Source of the DNA: an uncultured Hyphomicrobiales bacterium
Lineage (GTDB): Bacteria > Pseudomonadota > Alphaproteobacteria > Rhizobiales > Beijerinckiaceae
DNA: 64,000 bases
Assembly: GCA_903861645.1 (NCBI GenBank)
Contig: CAIOVE010000010.1
Span: 1 to 64,000, forward strand
Direction of reading: 5' to 3'
Part shown: positions 36,114-63,644 of the stretch, piece by piece
Layout of the letters: each line of letters opens with the position of its first letter
Position numbering within the stretch: position 1 is the stretch's first letter
Notes under the pieces: model-generated
Database searches by the model: none
Told to the model about the DNA's origin: nothing
Seen by the model: only the letters and a program-made list of their open reading frames with translations
Translations under genes and position numbers: made by a program

Positions 36114-36839
36114 TCAGACCATGTATTGGCCGCCATTGGCCGACAGGGTCGATCCGGTGATGAAGCCGGCGTCGTCGGCCGCGAGGAACACCACGGCCCG
36201 CGCGATTTCCGACGGCTCGCCGAGGCGGCCGACGGGAATGTGCGGCAGGATCGCCTTCTCGATGATGGCGGGATCGATGGCCCGCACCATTTCCGTGCCG
36301 ATGTAGCCGGGGGTGATGGCGTTGACGGTGATGCCGGCCTTCGCGCCTTCCTGCGCCAGCGCCTTGACGAAGCCGATGTCGCCGGCCTTCGCGGCGGAGT
36401 AGTTGGCCTGACCCATCTGGCCCTTCTGGCCATTGATGGAGGAAATGCAGATGACGCGGCCGAACTTGCGGGCGCGCATGCCCTCCCACACCGGGCGGGT
36501 CATGTTGAACAGCGAATTCAGGTTGGTGTTGATGACGGCGTACCACTGGTCCTTCGTCATCTTGTGGAACATGCCGTCGCGGGTGATGCCGGCGATGTTG
36601 ACGAGAACCTCGATGGGGCCGAGGTCGGCCTCGACCTTCGCGACGCCCGCCGCGCAGGCGTCGAAGTCGGAGACGTCCCACTTGTAAACGGGGATGCCGG
36701 TCTCGCCCTTGAATTTGGCGGCCGCGTCGTCGTTGCCGGCGTAGTTGGCGGCGACGGTGTAGCCTGCCGCCTTGAGCGCGATGGATATCGCCGCGCCTAT
36801 GCCGCGCGAACCTCCGGTGACAAGCGCAACCCTGGCCAT
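36114..36839 (-). CDS. phaB: Acetoacetyl-CoA reductase
   Basis: NADPH-dependent SDR reducing acetoacetyl-CoA to (R)-3-hydroxybutyryl-CoA for polyhydroxybutyrate. 241 residues from ATG 36839, which follows AGGGAGGAATGC. TGGSRGIG cofactor loop, NIAGITRDGMFHKM (typical of PhaB), S134, Y147 and K151 catalytic residues. It follows phaA on the same strand with a 94-bp gap holding a hairpin. FabG is the main alternative, but length, motif and linkage favour PhaB. Confidence 0.95.
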   Translation of the reverse strand: MARVALVTGGSRGIGAAISIALKAAGYTVAANYAGNDDAAAKFKGETGIPVYKWDVSDFDACAAGVAKVEADLGPIEVLVNIAGITRDGMFHKMTKDQWYAVINTNLNSLFNMTRPVWEGMRARKFGRVICISSINGQKGQMGQANYSAAKAGDIGFVKALAQEGAKAGITVNAITPGYIGTEMVRAIDPAIIEKAILPHIPVGRLGEPSEIARAVVFLAADDAGFITGSTLSANGGQYMV

Positions 36840-36859
36840 GCATTCCTCCCTGAAACAAC

Positions 36860-36888
36860 GACGGCCCAATCTAGCAGATGGGGCCGTC
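36860..36888 (-). other. Hairpin in the phaA-phaB gap
   Basis: GACGGCCC-a-ATCT-agc-AGAT-g-GGGCCGTC: 8-bp plus 4-bp stem broken by one mismatch, 20 bp before phaB. The T-tract on the minus strand is weak (gttgttt), so it may protect or attenuate mRNA rather than end it. Confidence 0.55.
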
Positions 36889-36933
36889 GAGTCATTCGTG
36901 AATTAGTCCTTGGACTTTATGTCTAAGCCGCGA

Positions 36934-38109
36934 TCAGCGCTCGACGCACAGCGCGATGCCCATGCCGCCGCCGATGCACAGGGTCGCGAGACCCTTCTTG
37001 GCGCCGCGGCGACGCATTTCGAACAGCAGCGTGTTGAACACGCGCGCGCCAGAGGCGCCGATCGGGTGGCCGATGGCGATGGCGCCGCCGTTGACGTTCA
37101 CGATGGCGGGATCCCAGCCCATGTCCTTGTTGACGGCGAGGGCCTGCGCGGCGAAGGCCTCGTTCGCCTCGACGAGATCGAGATCCTTGACCTTCCAGCC
37201 AGCCTTCTCCAGCGCCTTGCGCGAGGCGGGGATCGGGCCCGAGCCCATGATCGCCGGATCGACGCCGGCGGTCGCCCACGAGGCGATGCGCGCCAGCGGT
37301 TGCAGGCCGCGCTTGCTGGCTTCGGCGGCGGTCATCAGCACCACGGCGGCGGCGCCGTCGTTGATGCCCGAGGCGTTGCCGGCGGTGACGGTGCCGTCCT
37401 TCGAGAAGGCGGCGCGCAGCTTGGCGAGGGTCTCCAGCGTCGTGCCGGCCTTGATGTATTCGTCCTGATCGACGATCACGTCGCCCTTGCGGCCGGGAAC
37501 CGTGAAGGGAACGATCTCGTCCTTGAACTTGCCGGCCTTCTGCGCGGCCTCGGCCTTGTTCTGCGAGCCGAGCGCGAACATGTCCTGCTCCTCGCGGGTC
37601 AGTTGCCAGCGGGCGGCGATGTTCTCGGCCGTGTTGCCCATGTGGTAGCCGTGGAAGGCGTCGGTGAGGCCGTCCTTGATCATGGTGTCGAGCATTTTCA
37701 TCTCGCCCATTTTCGTGCCGGCGCGCAGATAGGCCGCGTGCGGGGCGAGCGACATCGATTCCTGGCCGCCGGCGACGATGATTTTCGCATCGCCATTGGC
37801 GATCTGCTGCATGCCGATGGCGACGGCGCGAAGGCCCGAACCGCAGAGCTGGTTGAGGCCCCAGGCGGTCTTTTCCTGGGGGACGCCAGCCTTCATGGCC
37901 GCCTGACGCGCGGGGTTCTGGCCCTGACCGGCGGAAAGAATCTGGCCGAGAATGACTTCGTCGACTTCCTCGGCGGCGACGGAGGCGCGCTCCAGCGCGC
38001 CCTTGATCGCCGCGGCGCCGAGATCGTGGGCCGGCGTGTTGGCGAAGGCGCCGTTGAATGAACCCACCGCCGTGCGCGCGGCGCTTACCACCACAATGTC
38101 CGTCGACAT
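36934..38109 (-). CDS. phaA: Acetyl-CoA acetyltransferase (beta-ketothiolase)
   Basis: Condenses two acetyl-CoA to acetoacetyl-CoA, the first step of PHB synthesis. 391 residues from ATG 38109 ([16 protein letters not shown]). Nucleophile C89 in NQLCGSG, then [10 protein letters not shown] (His) and [10 protein letters not shown] (second Cys). No phaC synthase lies in the window. It is divergent from phaR across a 331-bp regulatory gap. Confidence 0.97.
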
Positions 38110-38440
38110 TCCAGAACTCCCTTGCTGATGGATCAAATCCGTCCTGATCGGTTGATCCGAAAGAGGCGCGCTACCGCGTTATGATGGACGACGCCAGACT
38201 TCCGGCTACGCCTCCCGCCGCGTTGGGTCAAGCCGTTTGTGCGGCGCAAAAATACGCATTTGGTTGCATTTGGCGCTGCCAGCCCGGTTTTTGACCTCGC
38301 CGCGTTTGCGCTGCAAATTACCGCTTCCGCTTTGCAACAAGACGGTTATCCTGTCATCCTTGACGTGGGCGTCGTGGGGGGCGCCCAGGGGATGGGCGCC
38401 TCTTCCAGAAGGGCGCCGACAACGCATGGGGCGCCCGGGT
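38110..38440. promoter_or_regulatory. phaA-phaR divergent control region
   Basis: A 331-bp gap with no gene. It holds two TGC-N3-GCA palindromes (38240-38248, TGCggcGCA; 38307-38315, inside TTTGCgctGCAAA at 38305-38317) and a direct repeat GCATTTGG at 38256-38263 and 38266-38273 (10-bp step). TGC/GCA-rich sites are what PhaR repressors are reported to bind, so this is the likely PhaR operator region. Confidence 0.55.
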
Positions 38441-39037
38441 ATGGCGAACGACAAGCAGCCGACCGTCATCAAGAAGTACGCCAACAGGCGTCTCTACAAC
38501 ACGGGCGCCAGCACCTATGTGACGCTCGAGGATCTCGCCGTCATGGTCAAGGCGGGCGAGGATTTCGTCGTTTACGACGCCAAGACCGGCGAGGACATCA
38601 CCCGTCCGGTGCTGGCCCAGATCATTTTCGAGCAGGAAGCCAAGGAAGGTCAGTCGATGCTGCCAATCACCTTCCTGCGGCAGCTAATTGGTTTCTATGG
38701 CGACAGCATGCAGACGCTGGTGCCGAGCTACCTTGAGTTTTCATTTGATAAATTTGTCTCCGAGCAGCAGAAGATGCGCGAGCAATTCGCCTCGGCGTTC
38801 GGCGTGGCCGGGGCGCCGGGCGCCCAGATGTTCACGGCGATGGAGGAGACGGCGCGGCACAATATCGCGCTGTTCACGCAGGCGCTGTCGGCTTTCAATC
38901 CGTTTGTCGCGGGCGCCGCCGCTTCCGCGCCCGCCACGCCCGCCCGACCGGCGACGGAAGCCGCCGATCTCGAACAGTTGCGCAAGCAGGTGTCGGAAAT
39001 GCAGCGCAACATCGAGACGCTCAGCAAGAAGGGCTGA
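38441..39037 (+). CDS. phaR: Polyhydroxyalkanoate synthesis regulator PhaR
   Basis: Transcriptional repressor that senses PHA granules and controls phasin and phaR genes. 198 residues from ATG 38441 (MANDKQPTVIKKYANRRLYN, the family start). The PHB_acc_N DNA-binding domain covers residues 8-70, followed by PHB-accumulation repeats (LPITFLRQLIGFYGDSMQ, SYLEFSFDKFV) and a C-terminal coiled coil (DLEQLRKQVSEMQRNIETL). An ATG at 38426 is an alternative. Confidence 0.95.
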   Translation: MANDKQPTVIKKYANRRLYNTGASTYVTLEDLAVMVKAGEDFVVYDAKTGEDITRPVLAQIIFEQEAKEGQSMLPITFLRQLIGFYGDSMQTLVPSYLEFSFDKFVSEQQKMREQFASAFGVAGAPGAQMFTAMEETARHNIALFTQALSAFNPFVAGAAASAPATPARPATEAADLEQLRKQVSEMQRNIETLSKKG

Positions 39038-40365: not shown

Positions 40366-41388
40366 CTACTTGAGCAACGCCTGCATGCGTGTGACGACGT
40401 CGGGCGAAACGCTCGCCGTCGCCGCGATGATCGATTGCAGCTTCTCGCCGGACGCGGGATGGAAATCGAGCTTGGCCTTCTCGATTTCCGCGAGCAATTC
40501 GGGGTCCGCCATCGTCTCGTCGAAAGCCTTGCGCAGCAGGGCGATCCGGTCGGCGGGAACGCCGGGCGGCGCGAGGAACGAGCGGCCGACCTCGCCGCCG
40601 CTGACGTCGAAGGAAAACATGGCCTTGTCCGCGTCGTTCGTGGCCAGTTCGACCATGGTCGGCGTATCCGGCATGTCGGGATGACGCTCCTGCGCGTATT
40701 GCACGAGAACCATCGCCTTTTTGCTGTCGAGCCACTCATGCTTGGTGACGTTGAGCGTGTTCCACGAGGTGAAGGCGGCGTCGGTTTCGCCACGCTCCAT
40801 CGCCAGCAAGCCGTCGGTCGAGCCGGGGTAGGGGCCGATCATCTTGAACTTCGTGCCGATGACCGCGTTCAGCAACTTGTGGTAGCCCTCGGAGGGCGAG
40901 CCCGCGCCGGTCGAGGCCAGCGGCACGTCGTAAATCGTCGCGTCCTGTATCTTCTTGACCTTCGAGCGCTCCCACAGAACGGTGATTTCCACGTTCGACG
41001 TGGCGCGACCGATCCAGTTGAACTCCTTCGACTTGTAAAGAATGCCCGGCGACTTCAACGCCTCGTCGATGGCGAGCGTCTGCGAGGCGATGCCGATGGC
41101 CGTGCCGTCCTTCGGCGCGATCCGGTACATCCAGTTGGCGAGGGTCAGCGACCCCGCGCCGGGCATGGCCTGCGCGATGACGGTGGGATTGCCGGGGATG
41201 TGCTTGCCGAGGTGACGGGTCAGCAACCGGCCGAAATAGTCGTAGGTGCCACCGGCGGAGAAGCCGATGTAAACGCTGATCGTCTTGCCCTTGTAGAAGC
41301 TCTCGGCGTTCTGCGCGCGAGCGGCGCCCACGGGCGCGCAGGCGAGAACGGCGGCGGCGAAAGCCGCGCGGGAGGTGATGGCGAACAT
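40366..41388 (-). CDS. TctC/Bug-type periplasmic solute-binding protein
   Basis: 340-residue tripartite-tricarboxylate-type receptor. Signal peptide MFAITSRAAFAAAVLACAPVGAARA. Fold markers: ISVYIGFSAGGTYDYFGRLL, IAQAMPGAGSLTLANWMY, SFLAPPGVPADRIALLRKAF. AGGAG precedes ATG 41388. No TctA/TctB membrane partner is in the window. It resembles the protein at 46160 more than the classical Bug protein at 54462, and is divergent from the catabolic cluster, so it probably delivers or senses that substrate. Confidence 0.87.
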   Translation of the reverse strand: MFAITSRAAFAAAVLACAPVGAARAQNAESFYKGKTISVYIGFSAGGTYDYFGRLLTRHLGKHIPGNPTVIAQAMPGAGSLTLANWMYRIAPKDGTAIGIASQTLAIDEALKSPGILYKSKEFNWIGRATSNVEITVLWERSKVKKIQDATIYDVPLASTGAGSPSEGYHKLLNAVIGTKFKMIGPYPGSTDGLLAMERGETDAAFTSWNTLNVTKHEWLDSKKAMVLVQYAQERHPDMPDTPTMVELATNDADKAMFSFDVSGGEVGRSFLAPPGVPADRIALLRKAFDETMADPELLAEIEKAKLDFHPASGEKLQSIIAATASVSPDVVTRMQALLK

Positions 41389-41489: not shown

Positions 41490-41519
41490 GTGACGCGCGT
41501 CGATCCCTTCGCCTACAAT
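41490..41519 (+). promoter_or_regulatory. Candidate promoter of the 41.6-47.2 kb catabolic cluster
   Basis: GTGACG (41490-41495), 18-bp spacer, TACAAT (41514-41519), 76 bp before the first ATG. Found in the 207-bp divergent gap; no clear operator palindrome seen there. Confidence 0.4.
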
Positions 41520-41595
41520 GAGGAAGCTTGGCGGTTCACGGGCTGGCCAAGTGATCCGGCGCGCGCTATCGAAACGCGACACGAGGGAGGAATAC

Positions 41596-42354
41596 ATGGC
41601 GCTTCTGGGTTATGACGCCTTTGGCGGGGGACCGCGCAAGGTGATCGCGCTTCATGGCTGGTTCGGCGACGAAAAGACCTTCGCGCCGATCTATCGCGCG
41701 CTCGACCCGGACGCCTTCACCTGGATCTGCCCGGCCTATCGCGGCTATGGCGCCTCGCGGGACATTCCCGGCGACTACAATGTTCACGAGATCGCGCGCG
41801 ACGTGCTGGCGCTGGCCGACCATCTGAAGATCGATCGTTTCAGCCTCGTGGGTCATTCGATGGGCGGCATGGCGGTCCAGCGCATGCTGGCCGACGCGCC
41901 GGCGCGCGTCGAGAAGCTCATCGCCGTGACGCCGGTGCCAGCCTCGGGCGTGCCCTTCGATGATGCAACCTACGCCATGTTCGAGAGCGCCGTGAACAAT
42001 CCCGACGTCGCCCGCGGCATCGTCGGCTTTTCGGTCGGCGGTCGGCTCAGCAAGCGCTTCATCAACGACATCGCGCTCTATCCCAAGAAGGTCGCGCTCG
42101 ACGCCGCCTTCTCCGCCTATTTCAAGAGCTGGGCGCGCACGGATTTCCACGGCGAGATCGAGGGCAAGACGCTGCCGGTCAAGGTCATCGTCGGCGAGCA
42201 CGACGGCGCGCTCAACGCCGACGTGATGAAGGCCACCTACATGGCCTGGTATCCGAATGCCGAACTCGAGATCATGTCGAATTCCGGCCATTACCCCATG
42301 GATGAAACGCCCATCGCGCTGGCGACGTCCATCGAGGCTTTCCTGAACAAGTAA
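41596..42354 (+). CDS. Alpha/beta-fold hydrolase
   Basis: 252-residue serine hydrolase. Oxyanion region LHGWFGDEKTF, nucleophile elbow GHSMGG (S98), acid in VIVGEHDGAL, catalytic His in SNSGHYPMDE. GGGAGGAATAC before the ATG sets the start. First gene of a run on one strand with two cyclase-family hydrolases, a cupin, an SDR and an acyl-CoA dehydrogenase-type enzyme. The substrate is unknown: ester, lactone or C-C bond hydrolysis all possible. Confidence 0.88.
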   Translation: MALLGYDAFGGGPRKVIALHGWFGDEKTFAPIYRALDPDAFTWICPAYRGYGASRDIPGDYNVHEIARDVLALADHLKIDRFSLVGHSMGGMAVQRMLADAPARVEKLIAVTPVPASGVPFDDATYAMFESAVNNPDVARGIVGFSVGGRLSKRFINDIALYPKKVALDAAFSAYFKSWARTDFHGEIEGKTLPVKVIVGEHDGALNADVMKATYMAWYPNAELEIMSNSGHYPMDETPIALATSIEAFLNK

Positions 42355-42383
42355 CGAGCGCGCGTCCGCGCGACGGAGGACAC

Positions 42384-43238
42384 ATGGACGATCTTGGTCG
42401 GTACAAAAAGGGCAAGTCGGGCCGCGACCCGCATGAACTCGAATGCGTCGAGACCGCGACGGGCCTGCGCTTCGTCGAGCTCAATCATGCGTGGGGGCAT
42501 GGCTCGCCCGTCATTCCCGGCGATCCGGATTTGCGCATCGAACGGCCGGCGACCCACGCGCGCGATGGCGTGACGGCGCAGAAATTCACCGGCAATATGC
42601 ATATCTCGACGCATCTGAACGCGCCGATCCATCTCATTCAGGGCGGCGCCGATGTCGCGTCGCTGTCGATCGACCGGTTCTTCGGCTCGGGCGTCGTGCT
42701 CGCCATTCCCAAGGCGCGCTGGGAACTCGTCGAGGTCGCCGATCTTGAAAAGGCGTCGCCGGCCATTCGCGCGGGCGACATCGTCATCGTCAACACCGGC
42801 TGGCACAAGAAATATTCCGACAGCATGGAGTATTTTGGTCTCGCGCCGGGCCTGTCGGAGGCCGCCGCGAACTGGCTCGTCGAGAAAAAGATCGCGCTGT
42901 TTGGCATCGACACGCCCTTCGTCGACCAGCCGCTGGCGACGTCGATGGCGGCGCATCGCAATGGTCCGCTGATGAAGCGGCTGCCCGCCTATTACAAGGC
43001 GCAGACGGGACGCGACGCGAAGGCGGATTTTCCCAAGTGGAACCCCGCGCACAAGGCGCTGCTTTCCGCCGGCATTCCCACCATCGAGAACGTCGGCGGC
43101 GGCGTCGACCTCGTGTCGGGCAAGCGCGTGACAATGCAGGCGACGCCGTGGCGCTTCCTGCATGGCGACGCCTGCGTGGTCCGGTTGATGGCCATCCTCG
43201 ACCCCGCCGGCGCCTATCGCGTCGCGAGCGGTCGCTAA
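42384..43238 (+). CDS. Cyclase-family (PF04199) metal-dependent hydrolase, copy 1
   Basis: 284-residue member of the family that includes bacterial kynurenine formamidase and isatin hydrolase. The metal motif HxGTHxDxPxH appears as H73-ISTHLNAPI-H83, with Asn in place of the usual Asp (N79). Later family blocks are intact (IVIVNTGWHKKY, AGIPTIENVGGGVDLVSGKRV). GACGGAGGACAC is a good ribosome binding site. Starts 30 bp after the hydrolase. Related to the next gene; the Asn change may alter metal binding or reaction. Confidence 0.85.
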   Translation: MDDLGRYKKGKSGRDPHELECVETATGLRFVELNHAWGHGSPVIPGDPDLRIERPATHARDGVTAQKFTGNMHISTHLNAPIHLIQGGADVASLSIDRFFGSGVVLAIPKARWELVEVADLEKASPAIRAGDIVIVNTGWHKKYSDSMEYFGLAPGLSEAAANWLVEKKIALFGIDTPFVDQPLATSMAAHRNGPLMKRLPAYYKAQTGRDAKADFPKWNPAHKALLSAGIPTIENVGGGVDLVSGKRVTMQATPWRFLHGDACVVRLMAILDPAGAYRVASGR

Positions 43239-43262
43239 TCCCTTCGAACACGAGAGACACCC

Positions 43263-44063
43263 ATGGCGGAAATCATCGGCGCGAATGGATTGCGCTATTA
43301 CGACCTCACCAACATCTATGGCCACGGCGTGCCGCAATGGCCCTCGTCGCCCAACCTCGACGTGCACACGGCGAAGTATCATTCCAAGGACGGCGTCTTC
43401 GTGCAGCAGGTGTCGGCGATCATGCATCGCTCGACGCACATGGACGCGCCGCTGCATGTCACCGAGAACGGCGGCACGCTGACCGACTACGAGCCGTGGC
43501 GCTTCTTCGGCACTGGCGTCGCGGTCTCCATTCCAAAGGGCAAGTGGGGCGTCATCACGCCCGACGATCTGGAAAAGGCCACGCCGCGCATCGAGCGCGG
43601 CGACATCCTGATGATCAACACCGGCTATCATCACAAGGTCGCCGACACGGACGAGTATTACGCCTATTCGCCGGGGCTTTATAAGGAAGCGGCGGAATGG
43701 ATCGTCGAGCGCGGCGTCAAGCTCGTCGGCGTCGACGTGCAGGCGCTCGATCATCCGCTCGGCACGAAGCTCGCCGATCACGGCCCCGGCCCGTCGCACT
43801 GGTATCTCAACGACGAATACAAGGAAGTCACCGGCCGCAAAATCGCCGACGACTTTCCGCATTGGGAGCCCGCGCACAAGATCATGATGGGCAATGGCAT
43901 TCCCGGCATCGAGAATATAGGCGGCGATCTAGATCTCGTCACCGGCAAGCGCTGCACCTTCCTCGCCTTTCCCTGGCGCTGGCCGCAGGGCGAGGGATGC
44001 ACGTTGCGCGTTATGGCCGTGATCGACCCCGATCAGACATTCCGCATCGAAACGGGAGCCTGA
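43263..44063 (+). CDS. Cyclase-family (PF04199) metal-dependent hydrolase, copy 2
   Basis: 266-residue paralogue of the preceding gene. Its metal motif H55-RSTHMDAPL-H65 keeps the canonical Asp (D61). Shared blocks include ILMINTGYHHK and NGIPGIENIGGDLDLVTGKR. Amide or lactam ring opening (as in isatin or cyclic imide breakdown) is the family chemistry; the substrate here is unknown. It sits 24 bp after copy 1 and 1 bp before the cupin gene. Confidence 0.87.
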   Translation: MAEIIGANGLRYYDLTNIYGHGVPQWPSSPNLDVHTAKYHSKDGVFVQQVSAIMHRSTHMDAPLHVTENGGTLTDYEPWRFFGTGVAVSIPKGKWGVITPDDLEKATPRIERGDILMINTGYHHKVADTDEYYAYSPGLYKEAAEWIVERGVKLVGVDVQALDHPLGTKLADHGPGPSHWYLNDEYKEVTGRKIADDFPHWEPAHKIMMGNGIPGIENIGGDLDLVTGKRCTFLAFPWRWPQGEGCTLRVMAVIDPDQTFRIETGA

Positions 44064-44064
44064 C

Positions 44065-44397
44065 ATGCACGTCACCCGCATTGGCGACGCCAGGCCCTAC
44101 GAGGCCAAGCTGCATCACGCGATGACCGCGCTGCAATTGCAGGGCGGCGCCGAGAACGAGACGCAAAACTTCACGCTCGGCCTGTCGCATTTCCTGCCGG
44201 GCGGCGGCGCGTCGTGGTCGGCGTCCGCGACGGAGAAAATCTATCTCGTCATCGCCGGACATGTGACTGTCATCACCGACAAGGGCGAGACCACGCTGGG
44301 TCCGCTCGACTCGTGTCACCTCGCGCCGGGCGAGGGCCGCTCCATCGAAAACCGCTCGAACGAGGTCGCCACCATGGCGGTCATCATCTCCAAATAG
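44065..44397 (+). CDS. Small single-domain cupin
   Basis: 110-residue cupin: the barrel runs through FTLGLSHFLPGGGAS, EKIYLVIAGHVTVITDKGE and LGPLDSCHLAPGEGRSIEN. The usual first-motif His residues are partly replaced (SATEKIYLV), so metal binding is doubtful. Could be an isomerase, a hydrolase partner or a sensor in the cluster. GGGAGCCTGAC upstream overlaps the end of the previous gene. Confidence 0.82.
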   Translation: MHVTRIGDARPYEAKLHHAMTALQLQGGAENETQNFTLGLSHFLPGGGASWSASATEKIYLVIAGHVTVITDKGETTLGPLDSCHLAPGEGRSIENRSNEVATMAVIISK

Positions 44398-44407
44398 ACG
44401 AGGCGTC

Positions 44408-45211
44408 ATGATTTCCGAACCCCTGCACAATCCGCTGTCGCTCTTCAACGTGAAGGGCAAGTCGGCCATCATCACCGGCGCCACCGGCGCCTTCGGGCGC
44501 GCCACCGCGATCACGCTGTCGTCGCTCGGCGGCAAGGTGACGATCGCCAGCGGCAATCTCGCGGAACTCGAGGAGGTCGCCGAGGAGTGCAGGTCCGTCG
44601 GCGGCGAGGTCTGCGTCGTCAATCGACGGCCCGACGCGCTCGAGGACGCGCAGGCCATGCTCGACGCGGCGCTGAAGGCCTTCGGTCGCGTCGATCAACT
44701 CGTCGTCGGCTCGGGCTACAACAAGGCCGGCTTCATTCAGGATCTTGAATTCGAGGACTGGCAGGCCGTGATGGACGCCAACGTGCGCGGCCCCTGGTTC
44801 ATGGCGAAGGCGGTCGGAACCTACTGGATAAAGGAAAAGGTCAAGGGCAAGGTCGTGCTGATGTCGTCCGTGCGCGGGCGCCACGGCAACATCTCCGGCT
44901 ACACGGGCTATTGCGCGTCCAAGGGCGCGACGGACTCGCTGACGCGCGTGCTGGCGACGGAATGGGCCAGGCATGGCATCACCGTCAACGCCATCGCGCC
45001 GACGGTGTTCCGCTCGAAGCTGACGGCGTGGATGTTCGGCGACGATGAACTCGGTCAGGCGACCAAGGCGCGCTCGCTTTCGCGCATTCCGCTCGGCCGT
45101 CTTGGCGAGGTCGAGGATCTCATGGGCATGGCGCTCTATCTGTTGTCGCCGGCCTCGGATTTCTGCACGGGTCAGGTGATGTATGTCGATGGTGGATTCA
45201 CCGCGGGCTGA
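44408..45211 (+). CDS. SDR-family oxidoreductase
   Basis: 267-residue short-chain dehydrogenase. Cofactor loop TGATGAFGRA, catalytic S153/S154, Y168 and K172 (SGYTGYCASKGA). The common NNAG motif is replaced by SGYNKAG. The C-terminus GQVMYVDGGFTAG is typical. It probably oxidises a hydroxyl released by the hydrolases. Its 3' end overlaps the next gene by 29 bp. Confidence 0.88.
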   Translation: MISEPLHNPLSLFNVKGKSAIITGATGAFGRATAITLSSLGGKVTIASGNLAELEEVAEECRSVGGEVCVVNRRPDALEDAQAMLDAALKAFGRVDQLVVGSGYNKAGFIQDLEFEDWQAVMDANVRGPWFMAKAVGTYWIKEKVKGKVVLMSSVRGRHGNISGYTGYCASKGATDSLTRVLATEWARHGITVNAIAPTVFRSKLTAWMFGDDELGQATKARSLSRIPLGRLGEVEDLMGMALYLLSPASDFCTGQVMYVDGGFTAG

Positions 45212-46106
45212 CACGCTCGGCGTGATCGGCGGCGGTCGCATGGGCGCCGCCATCGCGCAGATTTTCGCCGCCGAGGGTTTCGACGTCGTGGTCGTCGAGC
45301 CCAACGCCGATCTGCGCGCGCAAATGCCCGCGCGCATCGCCGACATCTGTCGCGCGCGCGGGCAGGGCGCCGAGGCGGCGTCGCGGGTGACGCCCGTCGC
45401 CGCCATCGGGCCGGAACTCGCCGATCGCGCGCTGGTCATCGAGGCCGCGCCGGAAAAGCTCGAACTCAAGCAGTCCATATTCGAGACGCTGGGAAACGTC
45501 TGCCATCCGCGGACCATTCTGGCGACGAACACATCCGTCATTCCCGTCACGGCCATCGGCGCGCGCGCGAGGCGCCCCGAGCGCGTCGTCGGGACGCATT
45601 TCTGGAATCCGCCCTACGCGGTCAGGCTCGTCGAGGTCGTGCAAACCGAATCGACCAGCCTGGAAACCGTCGAAGCCACCATGGCGCTGATGGCGCGCGT
45701 CGGGCAGATGCCCGTGCATGTGCGGCGCGATGTCACCGGCTTCATCGGCAATCGATTGCAACACGCGCTCAAGCGCGAGGCCATCGCGCTGGTGGAGAAC
45801 GGCGTCTGCGACGCGGAAACGGTGGACTTCGTCATCCGCAATTCCTTCGGCGCGCGTCTGGGAATCATGGGCACGCTGGAACAGTCCGACCTCGTTGGCC
45901 TCAACCTGACGCTCGACATTCACAAGGTCATTCTCGCCGATCTCGATCGCAGCGTGGCGCCGCAGAAGCTGCTGGTCGATCTCGTCGCCGCCGGCAAGAC
46001 GGGCGCGAGCGTGGGCGAGGGTTTCCGCAAATGGAACGAGGCCGAGCGCGAGGAATTGCGCGGCCGGCTCGACAAGGCCCTGCTCGCCAAAAAGACCGGC
46101 GATTGA
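45183..46106 (+). CDS. 3-hydroxyacyl-CoA dehydrogenase family protein
   Basis: 307-residue NAD-binding dehydrogenase. N-terminal Rossmann loop GVIGGGRMGAA, then TNTSVIPVTAI, the substrate region THFWNPPYAVRLVEVV and the C-terminal helical domain (DVTGFIGNRLQHALKREAIAL). Similar to the single-domain 3-hydroxybutyryl-CoA dehydrogenase or L-gulonate/carnitine dehydrogenase type. ATG 45183 overlaps the SDR gene by 29 bp; ATG 45189 is also possible. Likely the last catabolic step in the cluster. Confidence 0.87.
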   Translation: MSMVDSPRADTLGVIGGGRMGAAIAQIFAAEGFDVVVVEPNADLRAQMPARIADICRARGQGAEAASRVTPVAAIGPELADRALVIEAAPEKLELKQSIFETLGNVCHPRTILATNTSVIPVTAIGARARRPERVVGTHFWNPPYAVRLVEVVQTESTSLETVEATMALMARVGQMPVHVRRDVTGFIGNRLQHALKREAIALVENGVCDAETVDFVIRNSFGARLGIMGTLEQSDLVGLNLTLDIHKVILADLDRSVAPQKLLVDLVAAGKTGASVGEGFRKWNEAEREELRGRLDKALLAKKTGD

Positions 46107-46159
46107 CAGGCGCGGCGTTTTCCGCCACTCGCGACGCGGGAAACGCTGGATACCTGGAC

Positions 46160-47164
46160 ATGCGCCACATCAAGAAAATACTGCTCGTCGCTCTCGTGGC
46201 GGCGGCCGCGGCATGCCCCGCGCGCGCGCAGTTGAGCAACACCAAGGCGACGACCATGGTCATCGGCTTCGGGCCGGGCGGCGGCTATGATCTTTGGGGC
46301 CGCACGGTCGCGCGTTTCATCGGCAAGCACATGCCGGGCGCGCCGAATGTCGTCGCGCAGAACATGCCGGGCGCGGGCAGCTATGTCGCGGCGAGCTACA
46401 TGTACAATATCGCGCCGAAGGACGGCACGTTCATGGCGATCATCGCGCGCGACGCGACGCTGGGTCCGCTGACCGGCGCCGATGGCGCGCGTTTCGACCC
46501 CAACAAGATGACGTGGCTCGGCACGCCGACGACGGAAACGAACGTCTGCATCGCCAACGCGACGGCGAAGGTGAAATCCTTCGACGATCTGCTCAAGACG
46601 GAGCTGATCATTGGCGACACAGGGCCGGGCACGGGCACGCGTTCGTATCCCAACGCGCTCAACGCCTTGCTCGGCACGAAGTTCAAGCTTGTATCGGGTT
46701 TTCCCTCGTCATCGGACGTATTCCTCGCGATGGAGCGCGGCGAGGTCGATGGCATCTGCGAGTCGCTCGACAGCGTGACCGGCAAGCGGCCGGACTGGCT
46801 CTCGTCGAGGAAGGTCAACATCCTGTTTCAGGGCGGCGCCGAGCCGAATCCCGATCTGAAGGACGCGCCCTCGATCATCGATCAGGCGAAGACCGATCAG
46901 CAGCGCGCGGAGATCAAGTTCCTTTACGAGGGGCAGGGCATTGGCCGTCCCTTCGTGGCGCCGCCAAACCTGCCCGCCGACAAGGCGCGCATGTTGCGCG
47001 AGGCCTTCGACGCGACGATGAAAGATCCCGAATTCATCGCGGAGGCGACGCGGCTCAAGCTCAGCCTCGATCCCCGCGACGGCGCCTATCTGACCCGGCT
47101 GATCGCCGACATCTACGCGACGCCAAAGCCCATCATCGAGAAAATCGGCAAGCTCATCCAGTAA
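46160..47164 (+). CDS. TctC/Bug-type periplasmic solute-binding protein
   Basis: 334 residues with signal peptide MRHIKKILLVALVAAAAACPARA. Marker blocks VIGFGPGGGYDLWGRTVARF, VVAQNMPGAGSYVAASYMYN, FVAPPNLPADKARMLREAF mirror the protein encoded at 40366-41388, so the two are paralogues bracketing the cluster. No membrane partner is seen. Start at 46160 is set by the signal peptide; the open frame extends upstream inside the previous gene. Confidence 0.87.
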   Translation: MRHIKKILLVALVAAAAACPARAQLSNTKATTMVIGFGPGGGYDLWGRTVARFIGKHMPGAPNVVAQNMPGAGSYVAASYMYNIAPKDGTFMAIIARDATLGPLTGADGARFDPNKMTWLGTPTTETNVCIANATAKVKSFDDLLKTELIIGDTGPGTGTRSYPNALNALLGTKFKLVSGFPSSSDVFLAMERGEVDGICESLDSVTGKRPDWLSSRKVNILFQGGAEPNPDLKDAPSIIDQAKTDQQRAEIKFLYEGQGIGRPFVAPPNLPADKARMLREAFDATMKDPEFIAEATRLKLSLDPRDGAYLTRLIADIYATPKPIIEKIGKLIQ

Positions 47165-54461: not shown

Positions 54462-55436
54462 CTATTCGGCCTTGACGCCCGTCTCCTTGATGATGGCCTG
54501 ATATTTCGCGCTTTCGGCATGGACGAAGGCGGCCGTTTCGACGTCGGACATGATCCGCGTCTCGGCGCCGGCTTCGAGCAATTGCCGGGCGACATCGGGC
54601 TGGGCGACGATCTTGTTGACCTCGCGGTTGAATTTCTGCACCAGCGCCGGCGGCGCCCCCTTGGGCGCGAAAAGCGCCGCCCAGAGCGTCAACTGGTAGT
54701 CGGGAATGCCAGCGGCTTCCGCGATGGTGGGAATATCCGGCGCCGCTTGCGCCCGCTTGCCCGATGACACCGCGATGATCTTGAGCATGCCGGCCTTCGC
54801 CTGCGGCATGGCCGGCGGCAGGCCCGGAAAATAATAATCCACGTGACCGCCGATGAGGTCGTTGAGCGCCGGCCCGGCGCCGCCGTAGGCGGCTGTTTCC
54901 GCCTTGATTTTCAGGCGCGCCTTCAGCCATTCGCCGGCGAAGTAGCTGGGCGTGCCGATGCCCGAGTTGGCGTAGGTCAGAGGTTTCGTCGCCTTGGGCG
55001 CGCCGGCGATGAAGTCCGCCATCGTTGGCCAGGGCGACGCCGCCGGCACGACCAGCGCGAGAGGCGAATCCGCCAGAAAGGCGACGGGAACAAGTTCGAC
55101 GTCGGAGTCGAAATTCTGGTTCGGCAGCCAATGCTTGTTGATCGCCGCCTCGCCGGTCTGGCCGACGAGGAAGGTCAGGCCATCCGGTTTGGCGCTCGCC
55201 ACGGCGCGGGCGCCGATGTTGCCGCTGGCGCCGGGCTTGTTCTCGACGATCACCGGTTGGCCCACCGCCGCCTGCAGGCGTGGCGCGATCACACGCGCGA
55301 CGAAATCGCCGGTGCCGCCGGGGGCGTAGGCGACGATCAGCCGGATTGTTTCGCCCGCGGGTTCCTGCGCGCGCGCGTTGGCGGAGGCGATGCAGGCAAT
55401 GGCCGCGATGGCGGCGGCGAAAACGCGGCGTTTCAT
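54462..55436 (-). CDS. Bug-family periplasmic solute-binding protein
   Basis: 324 residues with signal peptide MKRRVFAAAIAAIACIASANARA. Classical Bug markers: IRLIVAYAPGGTGDFVARVIA, VIVENKPGASGNIGARAVA, KPDGLTFLVG, DIPTIAEAAG. GGGAG precedes ATG 55436. No TctAB partner. Downstream of the amidohydrolase in the same direction, so it likely binds the substrate of that small pathway. Confidence 0.9.
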   Translation of the reverse strand: MKRRVFAAAIAAIACIASANARAQEPAGETIRLIVAYAPGGTGDFVARVIAPRLQAAVGQPVIVENKPGASGNIGARAVASAKPDGLTFLVGQTGEAAINKHWLPNQNFDSDVELVPVAFLADSPLALVVPAASPWPTMADFIAGAPKATKPLTYANSGIGTPSYFAGEWLKARLKIKAETAAYGGAGPALNDLIGGHVDYYFPGLPPAMPQAKAGMLKIIAVSSGKRAQAAPDIPTIAEAAGIPDYQLTLWAALFAPKGAPPALVQKFNREVNKIVAQPDVARQLLEAGAETRIMSDVETAAFVHAESAKYQAIIKETGVKAE

Positions 55437-55474
55437 CAAATGCTCCCTTGGTCCGGTCGGCAATGAGCTGGGGA

Positions 55475-62736: not shown

Positions 62737-62783
62737 TCCAAAACCCCATGGCATCTGCCCGACCACAGGATGAGGATTTCACC

Positions 62784-63644
62784 ATGCGCTTTGCCAGCTA
62801 CGCCATCGATTCAACGCCCGGTCTCGCCACCGCGAGGGCCGACGGCTCTTTCGTGGGCCTGCTGGCGAGCGATCCGCGGTATCCGGGCGATCTTGACGAT
62901 CTGGTCGCGAAGGGGGGCGACGCCTTGCGGGCCGCCCACGCGGCGCTGCTTGTCGGCCAGATGGTCGACATTCACAACATGCGCCTTGCGCCCCCGCTCA
63001 AGCGTCCGGCCAAGATCATCTGCGTGGGGCTGAACTACGCCGATCATTCGGCGGAAAGCGGATTCAAGCAGCCGGACTATCCGACGCTGTTCTCGCGTTT
63101 CGCGGTCGGGTTCGTCGGTCACAACGAACCCATGGTGCGCCCGAAGGTTTCGACCCAGCTCGATTACGAAGGCGAACTGGTCGCGGTCATCGGCAAGGGC
63201 GGTCGTCATATCGCCCGGGACAAGGCGCTTGATCACGTTATCGGCTACTCGATCTTCAACGACGGCTCCATTCGCGACTATCAATTCAAGTCGCCCCAGT
63301 GGACGGTCGGCAAGAATTTCGACGGCACGGGTCCGTTTGGTCCGGTTTTCGTCACGGCGGACGAATTGCCGCCGGGCTGCAAGGGCCTGAAGCTGGCAAC
63401 CCGCCTGAATGGCGTGACCGTGCAGAGCGCCCGCATCGACGACATGGTTTTCGACGTGGCCACTCTTGTCGCGACGATCAGCGAGGCGATGACGCTAGAG
63501 GCGGGCGATATCATCGTGACGGGCACGCCGGCCGGCGTCGGGCTGGGCCGCAAGCCGCCGCTGTGGATGAAGCCCGGCGATATCGTCGAGGTGGAGATCG
63601 AGGGTATCGGCGTGCTACGCAATTCCATCGTCGACGAAGGCTGA
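62784..63644 (+). CDS. Fumarylacetoacetate hydrolase family protein
   Basis: 286 residues from ATG 62784, after AGGATGAGGATTTCACC; ATG 62748 would add 12 residues. FAH-fold metal site: YEGELVAVIGKGG, YSIFNDGSIRDYQ, GKNFDGTGPFGPVF, IIVTGTPAGVGLG. Such enzymes hydrolyse or decarboxylate acylpyruvates and 2-oxo-hept-diene-dioates in aromatic breakdown. Together with the following VOC-family gene, this suggests a small aromatic or ketoacid catabolic operon. Confidence 0.9.
   Translation: MRFASYAIDSTPGLATARADGSFVGLLASDPRYPGDLDDLVAKGGDALRAAHAALLVGQMVDIHNMRLAPPLKRPAKIICVGLNYADHSAESGFKQPDYPTLFSRFAVGFVGHNEPMVRPKVSTQLDYEGELVAVIGKGGRHIARDKALDHVIGYSIFNDGSIRDYQFKSPQWTVGKNFDGTGPFGPVFVTADELPPGCKGLKLATRLNGVTVQSARIDDMVFDVATLVATISEAMTLEAGDIIVTGTPAGVGLGRKPPLWMKPGDIVEVEIEGIGVLRNSIVDEG

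Follow-up and report, generated by a model that had tools for sequence, protein, structure and literature searches.

A 64,000-nucleotide stretch of DNA from an uncultured Hyphomicrobiales bacterium of the Beijerinckiaceae (assembly GCA_903861645.1, contig CAIOVE010000010.1, positions 1 to 64,000; hereafter the window) carries a catabolic gene cluster with two adjacent cyclase-family hydrolase genes, CYC1 and CYC2. The operon probably encodes a pathway in which phloroglucinol, or a closely related trihydroxy-aromatic compound, undergoes reductive ring fission, and the most likely substrate, judged from the predicted enzymes, is phloroglucinol or a close relative arising from the decay of plant polyphenols. 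The cluster is best understood as a variant form of an already known type of pathway, from which it would differ by a second, altered ring-opening enzyme and by the absence of the usual last enzyme.

A Conserved Two-Cyclase Operon

The genes of an alpha/beta hydrolase, two PF04199 cyclases (44% identical to each other), a cupin, a short-chain dehydrogenase/reductase (SDR), a 3-hydroxyacyl-CoA dehydrogenase-fold enzyme (3HCDH) and a TctC-like solute-binding protein all lie on the forward strand, and a second TctC-like gene is divergent at the head. This gene content, including the single strand and the divergent paralogous binding protein, had been described in an earlier sequence-only reading and was borne out by the Pfam assignments, by spacings of -20 to +53 bp and by the 37% identity of the two TctC-like proteins. 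CYC1 and CYC2 were found together with the SDR, 3HCDH and cupin genes at 16 loci (contig ends cut two of them), and the two cyclase genes were adjacent at every one. The count excludes L049, which is the same contig stretch as L039, and the two-cyclase part of L090, which is cut at a contig end and in which CYC1 was not seen (L and G numbers denote loci and genomes, respectively). With this recurrence the gene order is far beyond chance, and, judged by gene order across genomes, these genes are a real, conserved operon. The sequence-only reading had proposed one catabolic operon that includes ring opening of the cyclase type, an idea that scattering of the genes in relatives would contradict; the genes stay together at the 16 loci, which supports it on the level of gene order.

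Relationship to the Published Phloroglucinol Route

The phloroglucinol route of Clostridium scatologenes consists of the SDR phloroglucinol reductase (PGR), the cyclase dihydrophloroglucinol cyclohydrolase (DPGC), the 3HCDH 3-hydroxy-5-oxohexanoate dehydrogenase (TfD) and the BKACE-family enzyme triacetate acetoacetate-lyase (TAL), which is acetyl-CoA-dependent; all four were purified and assayed, and the gene set was also reported from marine alphaproteobacteria, Mesorhizobium loti, Bradyrhizobium sp. and Mycobacterium (PMC10470551). By homology, the window cluster matches three of the four steps of that route, namely the reductase, the dehydrogenase and, at family level, the cyclohydrolase. 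In not recognizing the gene combination as a described pathway, the sequence-only reading was wrong, since SDR, cyclase and 3HCDH form the core of the route presented in the main text of PMC10470551.

The C. scatologenes cluster, as described there, and the window cluster have in common an SDR of the PGR kind, a cyclase-family hydrolase, a non-CoA 3HCDH and their clustering. In contrast to the former, the window cluster has no BKACE/TAL gene and possesses a second cyclase in which Asn replaces a metal-ligand Asp, an alpha/beta hydrolase, TctC-like genes and a cupin; the word "cupin" is absent from the main text of PMC10470551. No description of a two-cyclase or TAL-less phloroglucinol cluster was found among the literature titles and abstracts listed, and the abstract, introduction and results of that paper are silent on a two-cyclase variant, although its supplementary cluster list may include them.

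Reductase and Dehydrogenase

In a sequence search of the PDB, the SDR matched 5g4k/5g4l best, with an E value of 1.3e-46 as against 4.3e-41 for the runner-up. We take these entries to be the phloroglucinol reductase of Clostridium sp. ATCC BAA-442. Identity to 5g4k/5g4l was 36–44% for the cluster SDRs and 24–29% for other SDRs in the same stretches. In addition, the substrate loop PT[VT]FRSx[LV]TxWM[FWY] was present in all 39 full-length cluster SDRs and in none of 11 other SDRs; this count omits the SDR of L040, which is cut, and that of L041 (10020-10821), a metagenome-bin gene split by a frameshift that is possibly an assembly error. The window SDR falls, on sequence grounds and given the presumed identity of 5g4k/5g4l, within the phloroglucinol-reductase family, a member of which has a known structure (PMC10470551).

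The 3HCDHs of the clusters, the window's included, were aligned to chain 4kug, counting enzymes of more than 270 residues and dropping pieces of 270 or fewer. We presume 4kug to be the 3-hydroxybutyryl-CoA dehydrogenase of C. butyricum. All 37 enzymes keep the catalytic Ser, His and Asn. The CoA-binding Lys56 occurs in none of them (a gap in 33, another residue in 4), nor does the CoA-binding Asn221 (Gly in 33, Ala in 4). The same combination, catalytic Ser, His and Asn without Lys56 and Asn221, is reported for the triacetate-forming dehydrogenase CsTfD (PMC10470551). Moreover, the second-best PDB match of the window 3HCDH is named for a non-CoA substrate, 5-formyl-3-hydroxy-2-methylpyridine-4-carboxylate. 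The window enzyme likely acts on a free 3-hydroxy acid. The acyl-CoA dehydrogenase step of the sequence-only reading is unlikely, and that assignment was rejected because the CoA-binding residues are absent.

The Two Cyclases

In the isatin hydrolase LaIHA, Mn2+ is bound by His69, His73 and Asp75 of the motif HxG[T/A]HxDxPxH, as described in PMC6117287. The position of the metal-ligand Asp is occupied by Asn in all 16 CYC1 sequences and by Asp in all 16 CYC2 sequences, as well as in one cut CYC2 copy in L090. Among the enzymes of clusters with one cyclase, 24 of 25 have Asp, the other being the plasmid cyclase of Rhizorhabdus wittichii RW1 (L036, 6932-7801), which has Asn. The remaining motif histidines of CYC1, and the later His223 and Glu235, are invariant. 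Since the sole cyclase of the R. wittichii locus also has Asn, this residue need not mean an inactive or a different enzyme.

The phylogenetic tree of the cyclases separated CYC1 (16 rows, support 100/100), CYC2 (16 rows, 100/100) and the one-cyclase enzymes (13 rows, 98/89), with CYC2 lying beside the one-cyclase group; the midpoint root served for drawing only. The structural model of CYC1 had a mean pLDDT of 75.5 and a pTM of 0.77, the motif region being among its weakest parts, and matched the isatin hydrolase/kynurenine formamidase fold (4m8d_A, Z 20.5, root-mean-square deviation 5.0, 215 aligned residues; 8hmo_C, Z 20.8, 4.2 and 189, respectively). The CYC2 model (pLDDT 77.0) matched the same families. 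CYC2, with the family and the metal motif expected of a dihydrophloroglucinol cyclohydrolase and a place beside the one-cyclase enzymes in the midpoint-rooted tree, is a likely candidate for that role. The constant pairing of CYC1 with CYC2, the constant Asn and the lack of a linked BKACE gene suggest that CYC1 has a job of its own, and it may hydrolyze a second C–C bond.

Two Kinds of Clusters and the Linkage of BKACE

The same genome holds, on contig 66 (L047), a one-cyclase cluster (type A) with genes of an IclR regulator, a cyclase, a cupin, a DctP-like protein, an SDR, a 3HCDH, an ABC transporter (identified by eye) and a BKACE. Plasmid pSWIT02 of R. wittichii RW1 (L036) carries a cyclase, a cupin, an SDR, a 3HCDH and a DUF849 gene, and a Mycobacterium riyadhense plasmid also shows the set. 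The cyclase, cupin, SDR and 3HCDH of these clusters are homologous to those of the window. However, the one-cyclase clusters are characterized by an IclR gene, a linked BKACE and a single cyclase of a separate clade, whereas the window has two cyclases.

Of the 21 one-cyclase loci with sufficient flanking sequence, 19 had a linked BKACE gene (18 by search and L038 by annotation; absent in L089 and L091), as against none of the 13 such two-cyclase loci (Fisher exact p 1.1e-7, for loci of related genomes that are not independent). Flank was taken as enough at 4.4 kb or more past the last core gene, while the type A BKACE begins up to about 5.3 kb past it. Omitted from these counts were L081, L087 and L088 (contig ends) among the one-cyclase loci, and L040 and L050 (cut ends) and L066 among the two-cyclase loci, the BKACE of L066 belonging to a neighboring convergent type A cluster. 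The type A BKACEs are of two kinds, as those of L037, L083, L084 and L090 are only 31–37% identical to the R. wittichii and contig-66 enzymes. The window contains no BKACE gene; other contigs of the genome carry three, including the one in the contig-66 cluster. A whole-genome search of 12 further two-cyclase genomes or records placed the BKACE genes, besides that of G346 (the genome of L066), either on a different contig or at a distance of over 20 kb, and found none on the L035 plasmid.

The two-cyclase type is separate from the one-cyclase type and rarer. Within the genus, 27 of 37 genomes gave a cyclase match at E <= 5.9e-73, and three of the 37, the own genome included, a close CYC1 orthologue (75% or more). 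Searched with CYC1 at E <= 1e-85, the order yielded 9 of 397 genomes, again with the own one counted, and the class and phylum surveys yielded the own genome only (1/385 and 1/398); the three samples overlap. Five loci, including that of G015, came from a scan of genome contigs. A match to the window's cyclase was present in 111 plasmid records, four of which were looked into; among the 20 of them listed, one exceeded 50% identity.

In L066 and L090, which come from two genomes of a single genus, the one- and two-cyclase clusters are convergent neighbors; the contig end cuts the two-cyclase part of L090. Beside the own one-cyclase cluster lies an amidohydrolase-family gene (L047, 16470-17426) with gamma-resorcylate decarboxylase as its best PDB match (2.6e-65), and a relative of it is linked in 3 of 24 one-cyclase loci (L047, L054 and L096). 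Such a gene would fit a phloroglucinol carboxylate as the source of phloroglucinol.

Proposed Pathway

With an SDR resembling phloroglucinol reductase, the chemistry would be a reduction followed by retro-Claisen C–C hydrolysis. The SDR would reduce the ring, in its keto form, to a dihydro-1,3-diketone, which CYC2, in a metal-dependent manner, would open by retro-Claisen C–C hydrolysis to a 3-hydroxy-5-oxo acid. The 3HCDH-fold enzyme would then oxidize this free 3-hydroxy acid to a 3,5-dioxo acid, which would be triacetate if the substrate is phloroglucinol. The last step would be a hydrolysis of the 3,5-dioxo acid to acetoacetate and acetate, for which CYC1 or the alpha/beta hydrolase may be responsible in place of the acetyl-CoA-dependent BKACE (TAL). 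The first three steps are supported by homology and residue signatures, whereas the fourth is what we infer from the genes that are always present and those that are missing. A phloroglucinol-type pathway may, in this way, end without BKACE. It is rather unlikely, in our estimate, that this ending is CoA-independent in the specific sense that the Asn-ligand CYC1 hydrolyzes the 3,5-dioxo acid, in which case both C–C cuts would fall to two retro-Claisen hydrolases from a single family and BKACE would be dispensable; this possibility is weakened because G260, one of the two-cyclase genomes, has close BKACE relatives elsewhere in its genome.

Alternative Explanations

Several observations weigh against the proposed scheme. 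The cupin has no role in it. The TctC and tripartite ATP-independent periplasmic (TRAP) transporter proteins suggest a carboxylate, whereas phloroglucinol is neutral. The NADPH-binding motif TR(S/N) of PGR, as given in PMC10470551 and mapped here, is not kept in the cluster SDRs, so their cofactor may differ. BKACE genes occur elsewhere in the own genome (three) and in 11 of the 12 other genomes or records checked, and the lyase could act in trans. Activity in trans was weighed as an alternative in its own right and is possible: G278 has only a remote BKACE, and G260 has close ones. Furthermore, 13 of the 16 checkable two-cyclase genomes also hold a type A cyclase with at least 79% identity to that of the own genome (this count takes in G318, whose two-cyclase cluster is cut, and leaves out the plasmid-borne L035). 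Two clusters for one and the same substrate would be superfluous in such genomes, and a related but different substrate is possible; the one- and two-cyclase clusters may serve related but different compounds.

These data lead to a reading that overlaps with the phloroglucinol pathway and that we regard as quite possible, although short of probable: the cluster would act on a substituted phloroglucinol or another cyclic polyketone, CYC1 would remove or open the extra group, and a type A or other BKACE would finish the product. It is favored by the frequent co-occurrence of the type A cyclase, the convergent pairs of clusters in L066 and L090, and the TctC or TRAP genes beside some clusters, which suggest a carboxylated substrate. 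The three genomes without a type A cyclase divide on this point. G260 (85% complete) has three BKACEs 57–67% identical to the type A one, in agreement with a BKACE-dependent finish. However, G278 (100% complete) has a two-cyclase cluster and a single, remote BKACE (26% identical to that of R. wittichii), and the Maritimibacter genome has one that is 30–40% identical to the four compared. Among the three, a BKACE-free working is most plausible for G278. The main alternative to an independent job for CYC1 is that it is a modified heteromer partner tuning the specificity of CYC2, to which we assign a fairly low probability. A catalytically active dimer has been described for isatin hydrolase, and both the strict adjacency of CYC1 and CYC2 and the uniform Asn in CYC1 would suit such a partner, but the retained motif histidines, His223 and Glu235, together with the Asn of the sole R. 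wittichii cyclase, indicate that the site need not be dead. The sequence-only reading had suggested a cyclic amide or lactone as substrate. PF04199 includes isatin hydrolase and bacterial kynurenine formamidase, with which the window cyclases share the fold and the His-His metal motif, and both cyclases weakly match the arylformamidase profile; nevertheless, their scores (58.0 and 51.2 bits) are far under its cut-off of 223. The isatin-hydrolase signature comprises a GLQC/GLAS motif in addition to HxG[T/A]HxDxPxH (PMC6117287). GLQC/GLAS was not found at the conserved IEN position, which reads TIEN in CYC1 and GIEN in CYC2 as aligned here, and CYC1 also departs by its Asn. A plain arylformamidase or isatin hydrolase was rejected on the scores and the missing signature, and with an SDR and a 3HCDH pointing to the phloroglucinol route, a cyclic amide or lactone is unsupported and very improbable. 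A search of the own genome for phloretin/2,4-diacetylphloroglucinol hydrolase gave no match, nor did its control, so the result is uninformative.

Gene Organization and Accessory Genes

The features of the cluster are listed in Table 1. From the alpha/beta hydrolase to TctC2, the spacings are 29, 24, 1, 10, -20 and 53 bp; a ribosome-binding-site-like sequence precedes the alpha/beta hydrolase and CYC1, and a promoter-like match, of a kind that is weak evidence, lies at 41490-41519. The N-terminus of TctC1 resembles a signal peptide (by eye), and of the two TctC-like proteins it alone reaches the Pfam threshold.

Table 1. Genes of the two-cyclase cluster and its flanking binding-protein genes in the window
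Feature	Coordinates	Strand	Remarks
TctC-like solute-binding protein 1 (TctC1)	40366..41388	-	PF03401 39.1 bits, cut-off 27; longer open reading frame (ORF) from 41472; divergent
Alpha/beta hydrolase	41596..42354	+	PF00561/PF12697; GHSMG nucleophile elbow (GxSxG); ATG with GGAGG upstream; longer ORF starts 41518
CYC1, cyclase-family hydrolase	42384..43238	+	PF04199 114 bits; Asn79 replaces metal-ligand Asp; motif HISTHLNAPIH
CYC2, cyclase-family hydrolase, likely dihydrophloroglucinol-type cyclohydrolase	43263..44063	+	PF04199 108.9 bits; canonical HRSTHMDAPLH
Small cupin	44065..44397	+	PF07883 28.6 bits; occurs in both cluster types
SDR, phloroglucinol-reductase-like	44408..45211	+	Best PDB match 5g4k/5g4l, E 1.3e-46
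3HCDH-fold dehydrogenase, likely on free 3-hydroxy acid	45192..46106	+	PF02737/PF00725; alternative ATG 45183
TctC-like solute-binding protein 2 (TctC2)	46160..47164	+	PF03401 23.8 bits, below Pfam cut-off 27

The bracketing of the cluster by two TctC-like genes, pointed out in the sequence-only reading, holds in the window and fails as a constant feature. TctC1 orthologues are present in L039, L041 and L042 of the same genus, whereas a TctC2 orthologue was found in L039 only and not in L041 or L042, the stretches of L040 and L050 ending too early to judge. Outside the genus, neither was found beside a two-cyclase cluster. In comparison with a tripartite tricarboxylate transporter, the window has TctC-like proteins and no TctA on its contig (contig 10); the two TctA genes of the genome are carried by contigs 81 and 61, and no search was made for TctB. 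A carboxylated precursor may be what the TctC-like proteins bind. By eye, the ORF at 54462-55463 also looks like a TctC-like solute-binding protein. A DctP gene 65–70% identical to the Maritimibacter one is present in L069–L072, and a LysR gene lies upstream in all eight loci of the order outside the genus, at a distance in L068.

The alpha/beta hydrolase is an accessory in this genus. It has orthologues in L039, L041 and L042; by eye, L040 is without one and L050 has a different alpha/beta hydrolase. A constant part in the cluster was rejected for it, as two-cyclase loci outside the genus also gave no match of 60 bits or more. Upstream of CYC1 in L050 (2061-5546, G011), on the same strand, this different alpha/beta hydrolase stands with a luciferase-like monooxygenase, a SnoaL-like protein and a TctC-like protein (by eye). 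Fumarylacetoacetase was rejected as a common last enzyme, since the two-cyclase loci show it only in L035 and near L068. A fumarylacetoacetate-hydrolase-family-like ORF at 62748-63644 (by eye) is more than 15 kb off the cluster and has 44–47% matches in L070 and L072. About 1.3 kb past the far end of TctC1, with other ORFs between, lie polyhydroxybutyrate-type genes (36114-39037; acetoacetyl-CoA reductase, thiolase and PhaR-like, by eye). Acetoacetate from the proposed pathway could feed them, yet the neighbors at this place differ in L041 and L042.

In conclusion, what had been an unknown cluster becomes a testable candidate pathway of polyphenol degradation in alphaproteobacteria, several of which are metagenome bins. 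A recurrent cluster variant with an altered metal site in a predicted C–C hydrolase can now be named, and the cluster types can be told apart by a working rule: one cyclase with BKACE, or two cyclases without it.

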